Shown here: piece by piece, positions 2,062 through 53,101 of the stretch | Numbering within the stretch: the stretch's first letter is position 1 | Layout: each line of letters opens with the position of its first letter | Assembly (NCBI RefSeq): GCF_007753265.1 | Contig: NZ_CP036349.1 | Location: 1,769,363 to 1,833,362, forward strand | Direction of reading: 5' to 3' | DNA length: 64,000 bases | Source: Botrimarina mediterranea | Lineage (GTDB): Bacteria > Planctomycetota > Planctomycetia > Pirellulales > Lacipirellulaceae | Translations under genes and position numbers: made by a program | Notes under the pieces: generated by a model | Told to the model about the DNA's origin: nothing | What the model saw: only the letters and a program-made list of their open reading frames with translations | The model's database searches: none

Positions 2062-2186
2062 CGACACTCCAATTCGCGTTGCGGCCCCGCGACCCGTCTT
2101 GCCCCCCCGGTAGAAAGCTCCTACTCTTCGCCGCCGCGCGAACCAGGGACGGTTTGCGCATGACGCTTGCGCGACGGAGCGCTCGT

Positions 2187-3938
2187 ATGAGGCCTCGCTG
2201 CTATCGGACTTCTCATTGGCTGTTCGTCGCCACCTTGGCGGTGACGACCGGCTGCGCCTCATCGCTATTCCGCGACCGCACGCCCGAGGCGGCGCTGGAA
2301 GAGGTCACCGAGAGCGGCACGCCGCTGGTGGCCGACTACGCGCATCCGTACGGTCTGAACTATGTGAAGGTCGAGGCGGTTGCGCTCGTCACGGGCCTGC
2401 ATGGTACGGGCGAAGACCCGCCGCAGACCCCGCAGCGCGCCACGATGCTTGACGAGATGGCGCGGCGGCAGATCGAGAAGCCCAACGAGGTGCTCGCTTC
2501 GCCCGACACGGCGATCGTGCTGCTGCGAGGCTTCTTGCCGCCGGGCGTTCAGAAGGGCGACCAATTCGACCTCGAAGTCCATTCGCCGAGCCGCAGCAAG
2601 ACGACAAGTCTCCGCGGCGGCCGGGTGCTCGAAGCCCGCCTCACCGAGCTGGCGGTGATGGGACAGCAGATCCACGCTGGCCACGTCCTCGCTAAGGGCG
2701 AAGGGCCGATCCTGGTCGATCCCTCGGCCGATGGCGAACGCGACATCGCCGCCTCGACCCGGGGACGCATCCTCGGGGGCGGCGTCGCGATCAAGTCGCG
2801 TCCGCTGGGCTTGGTGCTCGCGCAGAACCACCAATCGTTCCGTAAATCGATCGCGGTCGCCAAGGCGATCAGCTACCGCTTCCAATCCTACGAAGGCGGT
2901 CAGAAAATAGGTGTCGCCGAAGCCAAGACCCCCGAGTTCATCGAGCTGAAGCTCCACCCGCGTTACAAAGACAACATCGGTCGATTCGTGCGGGTGGTGC
3001 GGAGCGTCGCGGTGAACGAAACACCGACTGAACTCCAAGAACGGCTGGTCCTGCTCGAGAAGCAACTCCTCGACCCGCTGACCGCCGCCAACGCTGCGCT
3101 GCGTCTCGAAGCAATCGGCGACGAGTTGGCGATCGCTAAGCTCCAAGAGGGCGTCAAGTCGCAAGACGCCGAGGTGCGTTTCTACTCGGCCGAGGCCCTG
3201 GCGTACCTCGACAAGACCGACGGTGTCCAGGCTTTGGTGGACGCGGCCAGCGAGGAGCCGGCGTTCCGCGCCCACGCCCTCGCCGCGCTCAGCGCGATGG
3301 ACGACGTCACCGCCTACGAGGGCTTGCGCTCGTTGCTCAACAGCCAGAGCGCCGAGACCCGCTACGGCGCCTTCCGCGCCTTGTGGGCGATGAACCCCAG
3401 TGACCCGATGATCCGCGGCGAGCGGCTCGGCGGCCAGTTTGGCTACCACGCCCTCAATACCGACGGCCCGCCGATGGTGCACGCCACGCGCAGCGGCCGG
3501 CCGGAGATTGTGCTCTTCGGCGCCGACCAGAAGTTCAAGCTCCCGCTGGTGCTCGACGCGGGCAACGACATTCTCGTCAACGGCCTGTCGGGCAACGAGA
3601 TCACGGTCAGCCGATTCCGCGCCGACTCGCCCGACCGGCGCCGCACGGTTACGACAGCGATCGACGACGTGATCCGCGCGATCGTCGAAGTTGGCGGCGA
3701 GTACCCCGACGTCGTGCAAGCCCTTCAGCAAGCCAAACGCGACGGTGCGTTGCCGGGCCGCTTCGACGTCGACGCGATCCCCCGTTCGGGCCGCGAGTAC
3801 GACCCGGACAACGAAGTCGCGGGCGAGTCCGACCCCGACAACGAAAACGCCGACGAAGAACCCGCCGCCGGCGCGTCGATGGACGCCGACTACCGCGTCG
3901 GCACGCCGCTACCGGATCTGTTCTCGAACAAGAAGTGA
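2187..3938 (+). CDS. lipoprotein with FlgI-like P-ring domain and HEAT-like repeats
   Basis: About 583 aa. ATG at 2187 has GGAG 7 nt upstream and places a lipoprotein signal right at the N-terminus (LFVATLAVTTGCAS, lipobox Cys about residue 23), so export and lipid anchoring are expected. Earlier ATGs at 2079 and 2160 would bury the signal. The first half resembles flagellar P-ring protein FlgI (VEAVALVTGLHGTG; GVQKGDQFDLEVHSPS; TSLRGGRVLEARLTEL). The second half carries HEAT-like helices (AEVRFYSAEALAYLDKTDG; ETRYGAFRALWAMNP) and an acidic Pro/Asp-rich tail. No flagellar genes lie nearby, so a role as a periplasmic or outer-membrane ring or scaffold is only an inference. Confidence 0.8.
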   Translation: MRPRCYRTSHWLFVATLAVTTGCASSLFRDRTPEAALEEVTESGTPLVADYAHPYGLNYVKVEAVALVTGLHGTGEDPPQTPQRATMLDEMARRQIEKPNEVLASPDTAIVLLRGFLPPGVQKGDQFDLEVHSPSRSKTTSLRGGRVLEARLTELAVMGQQIHAGHVLAKGEGPILVDPSADGERDIAASTRGRILGGGVAIKSRPLGLVLAQNHQSFRKSIAVAKAISYRFQSYEGGQKIGVAEAKTPEFIELKLHPRYKDNIGRFVRVVRSVAVNETPTELQERLVLLEKQLLDPLTAANAALRLEAIGDELAIAKLQEGVKSQDAEVRFYSAEALAYLDKTDGVQALVDAASEEPAFRAHALAALSAMDDVTAYEGLRSLLNSQSAETRYGAFRALWAMNPSDPMIRGERLGGQFGYHALNTDGPPMVHATRSGRPEIVLFGADQKFKLPLVLDAGNDILVNGLSGNEITVSRFRADSPDRRRTVTTAIDDVIRAIVEVGGEYPDVVQALQQAKRDGALPGRFDVDAIPRSGREYDPDNEVAGESDPDNENADEEPAAGASMDADYRVGTPLPDLFSNKK

Positions 3939-7000: not shown

Positions 7001-7679
7001 CCCAGTGAACCTCGAGTCGCTGGAGGAACTCGACGAGCTCGAGAACCGTTTCGCTCAGCTCTCCGGCCAGTACCAAGACCTCAGCCAGGCGAAGCAGTCG
7101 CTCGCTCGACTTACCGCGCGGATCAACACAGACAGCCGCGAGCTGTTCCAGACAACGTACGAGACGGTCCGCGAGCACTTCCGCGAACTGTTCACGCGCC
7201 TCTTCGGTGGCGGCGAGGCGGACCTGTTGATGGTTGAGCCCACCGGCGCCGCCGAGGGGGACGACGCGCTGGAGGGGGGCGTCGAGATCGTCGCCTGCCC
7301 GCCCGGCAAGGAACTACGAAGCCTCTCGCTGCTATCGGGCGGCGAGAAGACGATGACGTGCGTCGCGTTGTTGCTAGCACTCTTCCGCAGCCGTCCGTCC
7401 CCGTTCTGCCTCTTGGACGAAGTCGACGCCGCGCTCGACGAGGCGAACGTCGGGCGGTTCAGCGGCGTCCTCAAAGACTTCCTCGGCTCGACGCAGTTCG
7501 TTGTCATCACGCACAGCAAGCGGACGATGTCGGGCGCCGACACGATCTACGGCATCACGATGCAAGAGTCGGGCGTGTCGAAGCAGGTGTCGGTCCGCTT
7601 CGAGGACGTCTCCGAGGACGGCCACATTAATCTCCGCCGGCGGGAAGCCGAAGCCACGCCGCTACGCCGGGCGGCATAG
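4023..7679 (+). CDS. smc: chromosome segregation ATPase SMC
   Basis: About 1218 aa, the usual SMC length. SMC dimers compact and segregate the chromosome together with ScpA/ScpB. Visible parts in order: N-terminal ATPase lobe with Walker A GPNGSGKS (residues 30-37) and the [11 protein letters not shown] segment; a long coiled coil of Glu/Arg/Ala heptads (about 170-510); a hinge (about 525-690, [20 protein letters not shown] onward); a return coiled coil; then the C-terminal lobe with ABC signature LSGGEK and Walker [19 protein letters not shown] at 4023 matches the family N-terminus ([13 protein letters not shown]); an in-frame ATG at 3975 would translate the repeat. scpA and scpB are not in the window. 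Confidence 0.97.
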
Positions 7680-7697
7680 ACGGCGCTAGGTGTAATT

Positions 7698-7782
7698 GTG
7701 GGAGGCGTCTCCAGACGCCGATTACGCGCACCATGCCGTTGCGGATGGACGCCGAAATCGGGGTCTGGAGACCCCTCCCACA
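7698..7782. repeat. GGTCTCCAGACC-type palindromic repeat (copy 1)
   Basis: Left arm GTGGGAGGCGTCTCCAGACG then CCGATTACG; right arm AATCGGGGTCTGGAGACC then CCTCCCACA. The arms differ at compensating positions (GGCGTC versus GGGGTC) and enclose about 25 bp. Other copies are at 13352-13443, 38877-38963 and 53015-53101. Confidence 0.9.
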
Positions 7783-8152
7783 GAAATTTGAGGCATACCA
7801 ACAGAAGCGCCTGCGCGGCTGCGCTAAGGAACTGCGAATCCGGCTCTAAAGTCACCCCCCCAGAAATAACGAAGATAAGCATCGGATGGGTTGTTCCCCT
7901 CCGAACGCAGGCAACGGGCCTGCGGGCGGCGCCCGGGGGACACGCAGGGGGGAGCCTGCCTTACGCATCCATCCGCTGGACCTGCTGTCGTTGCGCGCTG
8001 ACGGGGCGAAACCCTTCCAAAGGAAGGACCGCGCCGGTGGTGGCGGCTACGGTGAGGAGTGTGGGTTCCCCTCGCGCAAGACCTGTCTCGTTAGCGGCGT
8101 CGTTCCCTTAACGATGGCGTTCGCTGACGACGGCGCGGGTGCGGTAGTCGTG

Positions 8153-8231
8153 CGGGATTGTAAGGGTTGTGCCGGTTGCACGGAGCGACACGCTCCAAAC
8201 GGCTGGAGAAACCTTGTGATTGACAATCCCG
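8153..8231 (+). ncRNA. candidate structured RNA: long multi-segment stem-loop
   Basis: The region 7783-8450 has no convincing gene. Within it, nested complementary segments form one long stem: CGGGATTGT (8153-8161) with ACAATCCCG (8223-8231), AAGG(G)TT (8162-8168) with AACCTT (8210-8215), GCC(G)GTT (8171-8177) with AACGGC (8198-8203), and a tip GGAGCG-ACA-CGCTCC (8182-8196). A second strong hairpin, CGCAGGC with GCCTGCG, lies about 7907-7925. I could not match this to RNase P RNA, tmRNA, SRP RNA or a riboswitch: the RNase P GAGGAAAGTCC core and a tmRNA tag/tRNA-like end are absent. Whether it is transcribed, and its strand, are unknown. It could be a 5' leader of the downstream HTH gene. Confidence 0.45.
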
Positions 8232-8345
8232 ACGCGACTCTCGCAGCCGATCCGTGAAGCAGTAACGAAGGAACGGTTCAGTCAGACCTGACCCGGTCCC
8301 CAGCGACGATTAAACCCCCTTTACCCCGACCCAGACACGCATGCG

Positions 8346-8425
8346 TCTCGCGGTGACCCAGCCGTTGAGAAACATACGTGAGGGGCGCAAGGCGCAGCTT
8401 GCCGTGACCCAGCGGCAGCCTTCGC
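8346..8425 (+). promoter_or_regulatory. twin hairpins with identical TGACCCAG loops upstream of the HTH-receiver gene
   Basis: Hairpin 1: TCTC (8346-8349) and CGG (8351-8353) pair with CCG (8362-8364) and GAGA (8367-8370) around loop TGACCCAG. Hairpin 2: AAGGC and GCCG pair with CGGC and GCCTT around the same loop TGACCCAG (8405-8412). They lie 40-100 bp before the ATG at 8463. Two stems with different sequences but one identical 8-nt loop suggest a recognition element in a leader RNA. No known motif was matched. Confidence 0.4.
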
Positions 8426-8462
8426 GACGAGCGGACATTCAGACAGAGAATTGGAGAGCCCG

Positions 8463-9035
8463 ATGAAGGTCTTCACGACGGGTCAGGTCGCTAAGATCTG
8501 CAAGGTCGCCCCGCGCACCGTCAGCAAATGGTTTGATTCGGGACGTCTCAAGGGATACCGGATCCCCGGTTCCCAGGACCGCCGGATCCCCCGCGAGTAC
8601 CTGATCAAGTTCCTCAAGGAGCACGGCATGCCCCTTGGCGACCTCGAAGACGAGGCCATGGCCAAGGTCTTGATCGTCGCTCAGGACCAGGTGCTGATCG
8701 AGAACCTCAAGCGGGAGCTTCCCGCCGACAAGTCGTTCCGCACGCAGACCGCCGCCAGCGGTTTCGAGGCGGGCATCCAGGCGGAGAGCTTCCACCCGGA
8801 CTGCATCATCTGCGACTTCTCGATCGGTCATGTCGAGGCGCTGCAGATCTGCCAGAACCTGCGTCGCAACACCGACTTCGCCGAGACGATCCTGATCGCC
8901 CTGTTGCCGGACGACGGCTCGAGCATCAGCTTCGACCGTTCGACGATCAACGAGACGTTCAAGAAGCCTTTCGACTCGGCCCTGCTTGCCGAACGGCTTC
9001 GCACGCTGATCGGCGCCAAGAAGGAGCTCGTCTGA
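8463..9035 (+). CDS. HTH (MerR/excisionase-like) plus receiver-domain regulator
   Basis: About 190 aa. ATG at 8463 is preceded by GGAGAG 6 nt upstream; the in-frame TTG at 8451 lacks a site. Residues 1-55 are a MerR/excisionase-type winged helix (FTTGQVAKICKVAPRTVSKW; DRRIPREYLIKFL). Residues about 68-185 look like a response-regulator receiver domain: VLIVAQDQ replaces the usual acidic VDDD pocket, the phosphoacceptor candidate is Asp in CIICDFSIG, and a conserved Lys sits in ETFKKPFD. The order, DNA-binding domain first and receiver second, is opposite to most response regulators. No partner kinase is adjacent. The long structured region upstream may regulate it. Confidence 0.8.
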   Translation: MKVFTTGQVAKICKVAPRTVSKWFDSGRLKGYRIPGSQDRRIPREYLIKFLKEHGMPLGDLEDEAMAKVLIVAQDQVLIENLKRELPADKSFRTQTAASGFEAGIQAESFHPDCIICDFSIGHVEALQICQNLRRNTDFAETILIALLPDDGSSISFDRSTINETFKKPFDSALLAERLRTLIGAKKELV

Positions 9036-9266: not shown

Positions 9267-9347
9267 GTACCCGCTTCCCTCCGGTCGCTGACGCTCCCGG
9301 CTCGCCAGCCGAATTGAGGCGAGCCGGGAGCGTCAGCGACCGGAGGG
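9267..9347. repeat. GGCGAGCC-type palindrome (variable arm GGAGCGTCAGCGACCGGAGG), perfect 30-bp arms
   Basis: Arms at 9277-9306 and 9318-9347 are perfect inverted copies around an 11-nt loop (AGCCGAATTGA). The left arm is preceded by GTACCCGCTTCC (9267-9278), a core shared with other palindromes in the window. Relatives: 14439-14533 and 50328-50375. It is too long and perfect for an ordinary terminator. Confidence 0.92.
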
Positions 9348-13351: not shown

Positions 13352-13443
13352 TGTGGGAGGGGTCTCCAGACCCCGATTACGGTATCCATTCCGAATACGG
13401 ACGGCATGGTGCGCGTAATCGGGGTCTGGAGACCCCTCCCACA
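13352..13443. repeat. GGTCTCCAGACC-type palindromic repeat (copy 2)
   Basis: Left arm TGTGGGAGGGGTCTCCAGAC plus CCCGATTACGG; right arm GCGTAATCGGGGTCTGGAGA plus CCCCTCCCACA. The arms are nearly perfect over 31 bp and enclose about 30 bp (TATCCATTCCGAATACGG and following). It is located just past the end of miaA. Confidence 0.93.
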
Positions 13444-14438: not shown

Positions 14439-14533
14439 AGGCGAGCCGGGAGCGTCAGCAACCAGAGGGAACCCGGCCATTTGATTTCAGTTACCGGCAC
14501 ATCCCTCCGGTCGCTGACGCTCCCGGCTCGCCT
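14439..14533. repeat. GGCGAGCC-type palindrome (GGAGCGTCAGC arm), head-to-head
   Basis: Left arm AGGCGAGCCGGGAGCGTCAG (14439 on, with two changes: CAACCAGAGGGA) and right arm TCCCTCCGGTCGCTGACGCT through CCCGGCTCGCCT (to 14533), separated by 31 bp. It has the same module as 9277-9347 but in the opposite relative order, so the GGCGAGCC ends face outward here and inward there. Confidence 0.9.
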
Positions 14534-20556: not shown

Positions 20557-20758
20557 CGAGCCACGGAGGGGCGGCAGCGCGTAGCCAGGGGCGCGAGCCC
20601 CTGAATCCCTGGACAACGCAATTCACGAAGCCCCGGAGGGGCGACAGCAGCTCGGCGATAGTCGAGTGCTGCCGCCCCTGCCGGGGCTTTGATTTTTCTT
20701 GCGGCACGCCTTCCAGGGGCTCGCGCCCCTGGCTACGCGCTATCGCCCCTCCGGGGCT
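20557..20758. repeat. large nested palindrome (GGCGCGAGCCCCTG / CCCCGGAGGGG arms)
   Basis: Outer arm AGCCACGGAGGGGCGGCAGC plus GCGTAGCCAGGGGCGCGAGC plus CCCTG (20559-20604) pairs with CAGGGGCTCGCGCCCCTGGC through TACGCGCTATCGCCCCTCCGGGGCT (to 20758). Inside it, a second pair GAAGCCCCGGAGGGGCGACA (from 20626) and GCTGCCGCCCCTGCCGGGGC (to 20690) forms its own hairpin. The element could fold into a 200-nt cruciform. Confidence 0.9.
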
Positions 20759-38876: not shown

Positions 38877-38963
38877 TGTGGGAGGGGTCTCCAGACCCCG
38901 ATTACGGCATCCAATCCGTTTCGGCGTGGTGCGCGTAATCGGCGTCTGGAGACGCCTCCCACA
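38877..38963. repeat. GGTCTCCAGACC-type palindromic repeat (copy 3)
   Basis: Left arm TGTGGGAGGGGTCTCCAGAC plus CCCGATTACGG; right arm GCGTAATCGGCGTCTGGAGA plus CGCCTCCCACA, about 25 bp apart. It sits between lpxA and the oxidoreductase gene, ending 25 bp before that ATG. Confidence 0.93.
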
Positions 38964-53014: not shown

Positions 53015-53101
53015 TGTAGGAGGGGTCTCCAGACCCCGATTACGCGCACCGTGCCGATTCGGGATGGAAGCCGTAATCGGGGTCTGGAGACCCCTCCTAC
53101 A
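53015..53101. repeat. GGTCTCCAGACC-type palindromic repeat (copy 4)
   Basis: Left arm TGTAGGAGGGGTCTCCAGAC plus CCCGATTACG; right arm CGTAATCGGGGTCTGGAGAC plus CCCTCCTACA. This copy has TAGGA in place of GGGA at the outer end on both sides, a compensated change. Between two convergent genes. Confidence 0.93.

Follow-up and report, generated by a model that had tools for sequence, protein, structure and literature searches.

Does the long nested inverted repeat ahead of an HTH-receiver gene in Botrimarina mediterranea form an RNA of its own, or is it part of a leader that controls this gene? Both readings were offered in an earlier note on the window (the whole 64,000-nucleotide stretch of DNA analysed), which placed the structure in a block of about 600 bp without a gene. 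The block is gene-free, but larger than stated: it measures about 780 bp (about 7679 to 8462), bounded by the end of an SMC gene on one side and by the start codon at 8463 on the other. A coding reading of the open frame 7886-8257 was rejected because of in-frame stops in relatives. To our knowledge, few regulatory RNAs have been described for planctomycetes.

The long hairpin is one arm of a larger fold

The core of the stem is a perfect 9-nt inverted repeat, CGGGATTGT (8153-8161) with ACAATCCCG (8223-8231), and folding of 8140-8245 reproduces the inner pairings as they had been described. The fold prediction for this segment, proposed in the earlier note as a check, gives −56.2 kcal/mol against a mean of −35.0 for shuffled sequences, with none of 200 shuffles as good (z = −5.71). 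The stem goes beyond the 8153-8231 originally noted, as the outer helices TGCGGTAGTCGTG / CGCGACTCTCGCA, absent from the earlier list, flank it, and the slightly longer, irregular hairpin that results (domain D, Table 1) has a still lower z. Over 48 leaders the median z of this hairpin is −3.2, with 37 values below −2, and the preceding 115 nt give −1.1. The hairpin makes up about one fifth of the whole element: it is one domain of a folded untranslated region of about 575 nt, from about 7885 to 8462.

Table 1 Features of the leader and of the gene that follows it, in window coordinates
Feature	Position	Strand	Remarks
Promoter-like pair, TAAAG (7847-7851) and CGAAGATAA (7870-7878)	7847-7878	+	Fixed spacing in relatives
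First domain helix, GGATGG (7884-7889) / CCATCC (7969-7974)	7884-7974	+	Inverted repeats
Block B, GCAGG-(GGGGAG)-CCTGC, GGA hexaloop	7944-7959	+	Perfect 5-bp hairpin in the window
Long layered hairpin, domain D	8136-8251	+	Ends in GCCGAT; z −7.3; covariation in 17 relatives
CG-(AAGGAA)-CG, ANGGAN-type loop	8266-8275	+	Weak, 2-bp stem; just 5' of hairpin E
Hairpin E (GGTTCAG/CTGACC) and closed 3' domain, CCCCGACCCAG ... AGGGGC	8268-8388	+	Match to model R3
Ribosome-binding site GGAG, within ATTGGAGAGCCCG	8453-8456	+	TGGAG before ATG near invariant in relatives
HTH_17 and response-regulator receiver protein, 190 aa	8463-9035	+	Pfam PF12728, PF00072

In relatives the blocks follow the same order: promoter-like pair, 5' helix, AGGGGGGAGCCTGCC (block B, which hardly varies in the family), long hairpin ending in GCCGAT, and then hairpin E, which there reads GGATCAG-AAGGAG-CTGAGCC. 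On the 3' side of hairpin E, GCCCCGACCCAGATGTTTGCGG closes with CCGCAAGCAAGGGGC, and TTGGAGAGCC follows ahead of the ATG. The first domain keeps the 5' sequence CGGAAGG/CGGATGG in relatives, and the CGCAGGC/GCCTGCG hairpin reported before lies within it, in its full form CCGAACGCAGGC / GCCTGCGGGCGG at 7901-7929. The stretch GACCCAG, near invariant and unpaired, is repeated within the leader. A pairing between the GGGGGGA loop and a downstream CTCTCC was considered and rejected, as own pairs barely beat swapped ones (40/70).

At the 5' end, TAAAG and CGAAA elements with fixed spacing (19 bases separate TAAA from CGA) occur in nearly all Pirellulales leaders, and similar pairs are found upstream of the gene in several sequences from other orders. 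Of 117 genomes, 34 have the strict pattern. Because 33 of these 34 matches fall at the HTH-receiver locus, the pair in this form is not a promoter in common use. We infer a transcription start at about 7884-7888. Neither an intrinsic terminator nor a standard sigma-70 promoter was found in the leader.

Several other elements lie in the window. A repeat of about 85-90 bp with inverted ends (GTGGGAGG..GTCTCCAGAC / GTCTGGAGACCCCTCCCAC), of which none is expected by chance, is present in four copies (7697-7782, 13353-13442, 38878-38962 and 53016-53100) and looks like a MITE or REP-like repeat. A second inverted-repeat element, GCCGGGAGCGTCAGCGACCGG, has two copies (9281-9343 and 14445-14527), one of them between the HTH-receiver gene and a polyprenyl synthase gene. 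At 20713-20758 (+) there is an Acido-Lenti-1 RNA (Rfam RF01687; 43.4 bits, cut-off 37), here in a planctomycete; the original report describes this family from Acidobacteria and Lentisphaerae (PMC2864571). The product of the gene at 2079-3938 (+) combines HEAT repeats with a FlgI-like domain (flagellar P-ring).

Pairing is conserved while the sequence changes

A sequence-only MAFFT alignment of the long hairpin misaligned the arms, and RNAalifold found little in it; for this reason a covariance model was used, which was seeded on five sequences and recovered 17 copies. Among these 17 relatives, 22 of the 39 pairs carry changes on both sides, a value reached by none of 500 shuffles, and 84% of the alignment cells pair, falling to about 40% for slid structures, in an alignment that was itself fitted to the structure. 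The 3' part was aligned by sequence alone: in hairpin E and the 3' domain 13 of 22 pairs are compensatory and 87.6% are paired (0/500 shuffles), against 26-45% for the slid versions, and in one helix all 8 pairs show both-sided changes. The covariation over homologous regions that had been suggested as a check is thus present in both the long hairpin and the 3' part. Within the genus alone, covariation of the long hairpin is weak, with both-sided changes in 3 pairs. Model R2 did not find the window's own hairpin below an E-value of 3, and found that of the sister species at 12 bits; the window copy was identified by its position, its stability and the flanking 3' domain. The RNA structure is conserved across the order Pirellulales, with its sequence changing.

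As the earlier note had reported, no known RNA was recognised: in the Rfam search it called for (Rfam 15), nothing reached the gathering score over 7680-8470. The best weak matches of a permissive Rfam search fell on the unrelated repeat at 7697-7782, mostly to microRNA families. 6S RNA (RF00013) gave no match in this genome, whereas 5 of 14 control genomes had one. No publication on the leader element came up in literature searches. Rhodopirellula-1, compared by description only, resembles the leader in being a cis-regulatory candidate in Planctomycetes: its original report, which names Proteobacteria as well, lists it among possible cis-regulatory motifs, with no Rfam accession stated there (Weinberg 2010, PMC2864571).

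The element is tied to a single gene

Model R3, which covers hairpin E and the 3' domain and was not trained on the window species, matches the window with 45.1 bits (genome-wide E = 8.7e-9), and this is the sole copy in the genome. Of 97 Pirellulales genomes, 77 have a match to the model, 79 matches in all, of which 73 lie 62-151 nt (median 75) upstream of the HTH-receiver gene on the same strand. Of the remaining six, two are weak second matches (G005, G003), and four fall on contigs for which the gene was not listed. Among named records, 20 of 23 loci have the element at an E-value of 0.01 or better, and it was found, for example, in Blastopirellula marina and Lacipirellula limnantheis. Elsewhere in the class, in orders other than Pirellulales, matches are weak only, and in the family labelled f7 no R3 match was seen in any genome searched.

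Of the 146 genomes from the order, 145 carry the gene itself, as do 194 of the 198 from the class, with a close ortholog, 77-99% identical, in nearly all Pirellulales; its closest named relatives are from Botrimarina colliarenosi and B. hoheduenensis. The HTH half of the protein is almost invariant. The receiver domain keeps the aspartate of IICD, and its phosphorylation is uncertain because AQD stands where an acidic pair is usual, so that the domain may not be phosphorylated.

Of the two readings proposed at the outset, the leader has held up, and an independent RNA has become less likely, because the association is strictly with one copy, the same gene and the same strand. Compensated structure, one copy, one gene, a near-fixed distance and no terminator together form the profile of a cis-acting leader. 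We consider it highly probable that the structure belongs to such a leader of the HTH-receiver gene, and the leader probably controls this gene.

Putative CsrA sites in the leader

Control of the CsrA type is suggested because ANGGAN hexaloops are enriched in the leaders and the genome has five csrA genes. If stems of 4 bp or more are required, each leader carries on average 0.78 hexaloops of this type and each shuffle 0.05 (about 16-fold enrichment), whereas permuted versions of the motif stay at background; expressed per kb, the density is 1.42 in leaders and 0.04 in neighbouring DNA. In the loop of hairpin E, the A and the GGA are invariant and the N is variable (24 sequences), which follows the CsrA/RsmE rule for ANGGAN loops, as defined by NMR work on RsmE (PMC7652899; PMC3791407). 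Of 73 leaders, 37 have two or all three of the GGA hairpins. The leader loops are closed by G-C, and the SELEX consensus has C-G (PMC7652899). The number of csrA genes (PF02599 over cut-off) is unusual, and relatives have 3-10.

This reading stays tentative because the main GGA loop, that of hairpin E, is mostly lost in the window's own genus, and reads TCAGAC in the window. The GGA sites left there are the block B hairpin, the AAGGAA loop on its weak stem and GGAG at the ribosome-binding site. By sequence match alone, the window has at least two GGA sites, one of which overlaps the ribosome-binding site. Four sequences from other orders (L091, L092, L093 and L103) have ANGGAN hexaloops on hairpins whose stems differ, 255-308 nt upstream of the HTH-receiver gene, hinting that the ANGGAN sites may be older than the rest of the fold.

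In the mechanism that we propose, the leader (about 7885-8462) would be transcribed in one piece with the HTH-receiver gene from a dedicated promoter near 7847-7878, and would act in cis on the gene. The GGA hexaloop hairpins, together with the GGA of the ribosome-binding site, would recruit CsrA dimers, which once bound would hide or expose the ribosome-binding site, and the long hairpin would space the domains apart or fix them in place. Both the one-piece transcript and the mode of action are what we infer from this arrangement. A cis leader with its own promoter and CsrA-family translational control is the most likely mechanism, although we give it slightly less than an even chance; that CsrA is the effector across the order seems to us a little short of an even prospect, and lower for the window species.

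The model is close to the glgC-type leaders repressed by CsrA in Escherichia coli, which likewise have GGA in loops and at the ribosome-binding site in an organism that has CsrA, and glgC is repressed by CsrA that spans from a hairpin loop to the ribosome-binding site (PMC7652899; PMC3791407). The planctomycete leader differs in being about 575 nt long, in having a covarying multi-domain fold over an order and loops closed by G-C, and in the fewer putative sites of the window's genus. CsrA alone does not account for 500 nt of conserved structure.

Alternative explanations

The richness of the structure, beyond what CsrA sites require, would fit a CsrA-free leader that is bound by the HTH-receiver protein, which would thereby repress its own translation, or by another factor. 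The strict one-gene, one-copy association is typical of autogenous leaders, and the gene is very conserved and in nearly every genome of the class; leaders of ribosomal proteins likewise have one structured leader and one gene, in single copy and order-wide. However, their product is an RNA-binding protein, whereas here it is a predicted DNA-binding regulator: HTH_17 and receiver domains have DNA-binding and signalling roles, and we know of no RNA-binding role for them. This explanation, which also leaves the conservation of the ANGGAN loops unexplained, we regard as unlikely. A stand-alone or processed RNA that merely happens to be cotranscribed with the gene, such as a CsrB-like sponge of CsrA with its promoter at 7847, would make sense of the promoter-like element far upstream, of several GGA hairpins per RNA and of the many csrA paralogs to be controlled, and the CsrB/RsmZ sponges also carry several ANGGAN-type hexaloops in one RNA. 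Yet a sponge is expected to be independent of a coding gene, and nearly all R3 matches (73/79) are upstream of the same one; none lies away from it in 97 genomes, bar the four contigs and two weak second matches mentioned above. CsrB has many repeats, whereas the leader has only one to four GGA hairpins; with no terminator ahead of the gene either, a stand-alone RNA is quite unlikely.

A large riboswitch or other ligand-sensing leader, with its expression platform at the ribosome-binding site, is very unlikely. Such a leader could show a conserved fold of this complexity, with several domains, and unpaired stretches that hardly vary, GACCCAG among them, but most riboswitch classes precede several genes of one pathway and here there is one gene type downstream, with no Rfam match; the pairing of the hairpin tip with the ribosome-binding site is the best complement in the window, but is not clearly above expectation over the 48 leaders. 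A DNA-level role of the inverted repeats (operator or cruciform), or their chance descent from mobile repeats, could be suspected from the repeat element at 7697-7782 that adjoins the region and from the repetition of GACCCAG. We find this barely credible, since pairing is kept while both sides change, which recognition of DNA by a protein would not need, and the sequence of the long hairpin bears no relation to that of the repeat element. The cis-acting leader with CsrA-type control is thus kept as the working model.

Significance

The order-wide structured leader described here, for which we found no described family, is a real finding. Cis-regulatory leaders are a known kind of element, and this one is unusual in its size, in how deeply it is conserved and in its link to a planctomycete regulator that is nearly universal. 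It is decidedly unlikely, but would be of consequence, that the locus represents a new class of very large leaders (500-600 nt, in four or more domains) that serve one core planctomycete regulator alone, and that both control its gene and titrate several CsrA paralogs; if so, the locus would be a hub of post-transcriptional control in the phylum. A large RNA that compensatory change has maintained throughout an order, and that accompanies a regulator gene present almost everywhere, points to control at a core step, and the many csrA genes, together with the GGA hairpins in the leader, offer a testable entry to Csr regulation in the phylum.
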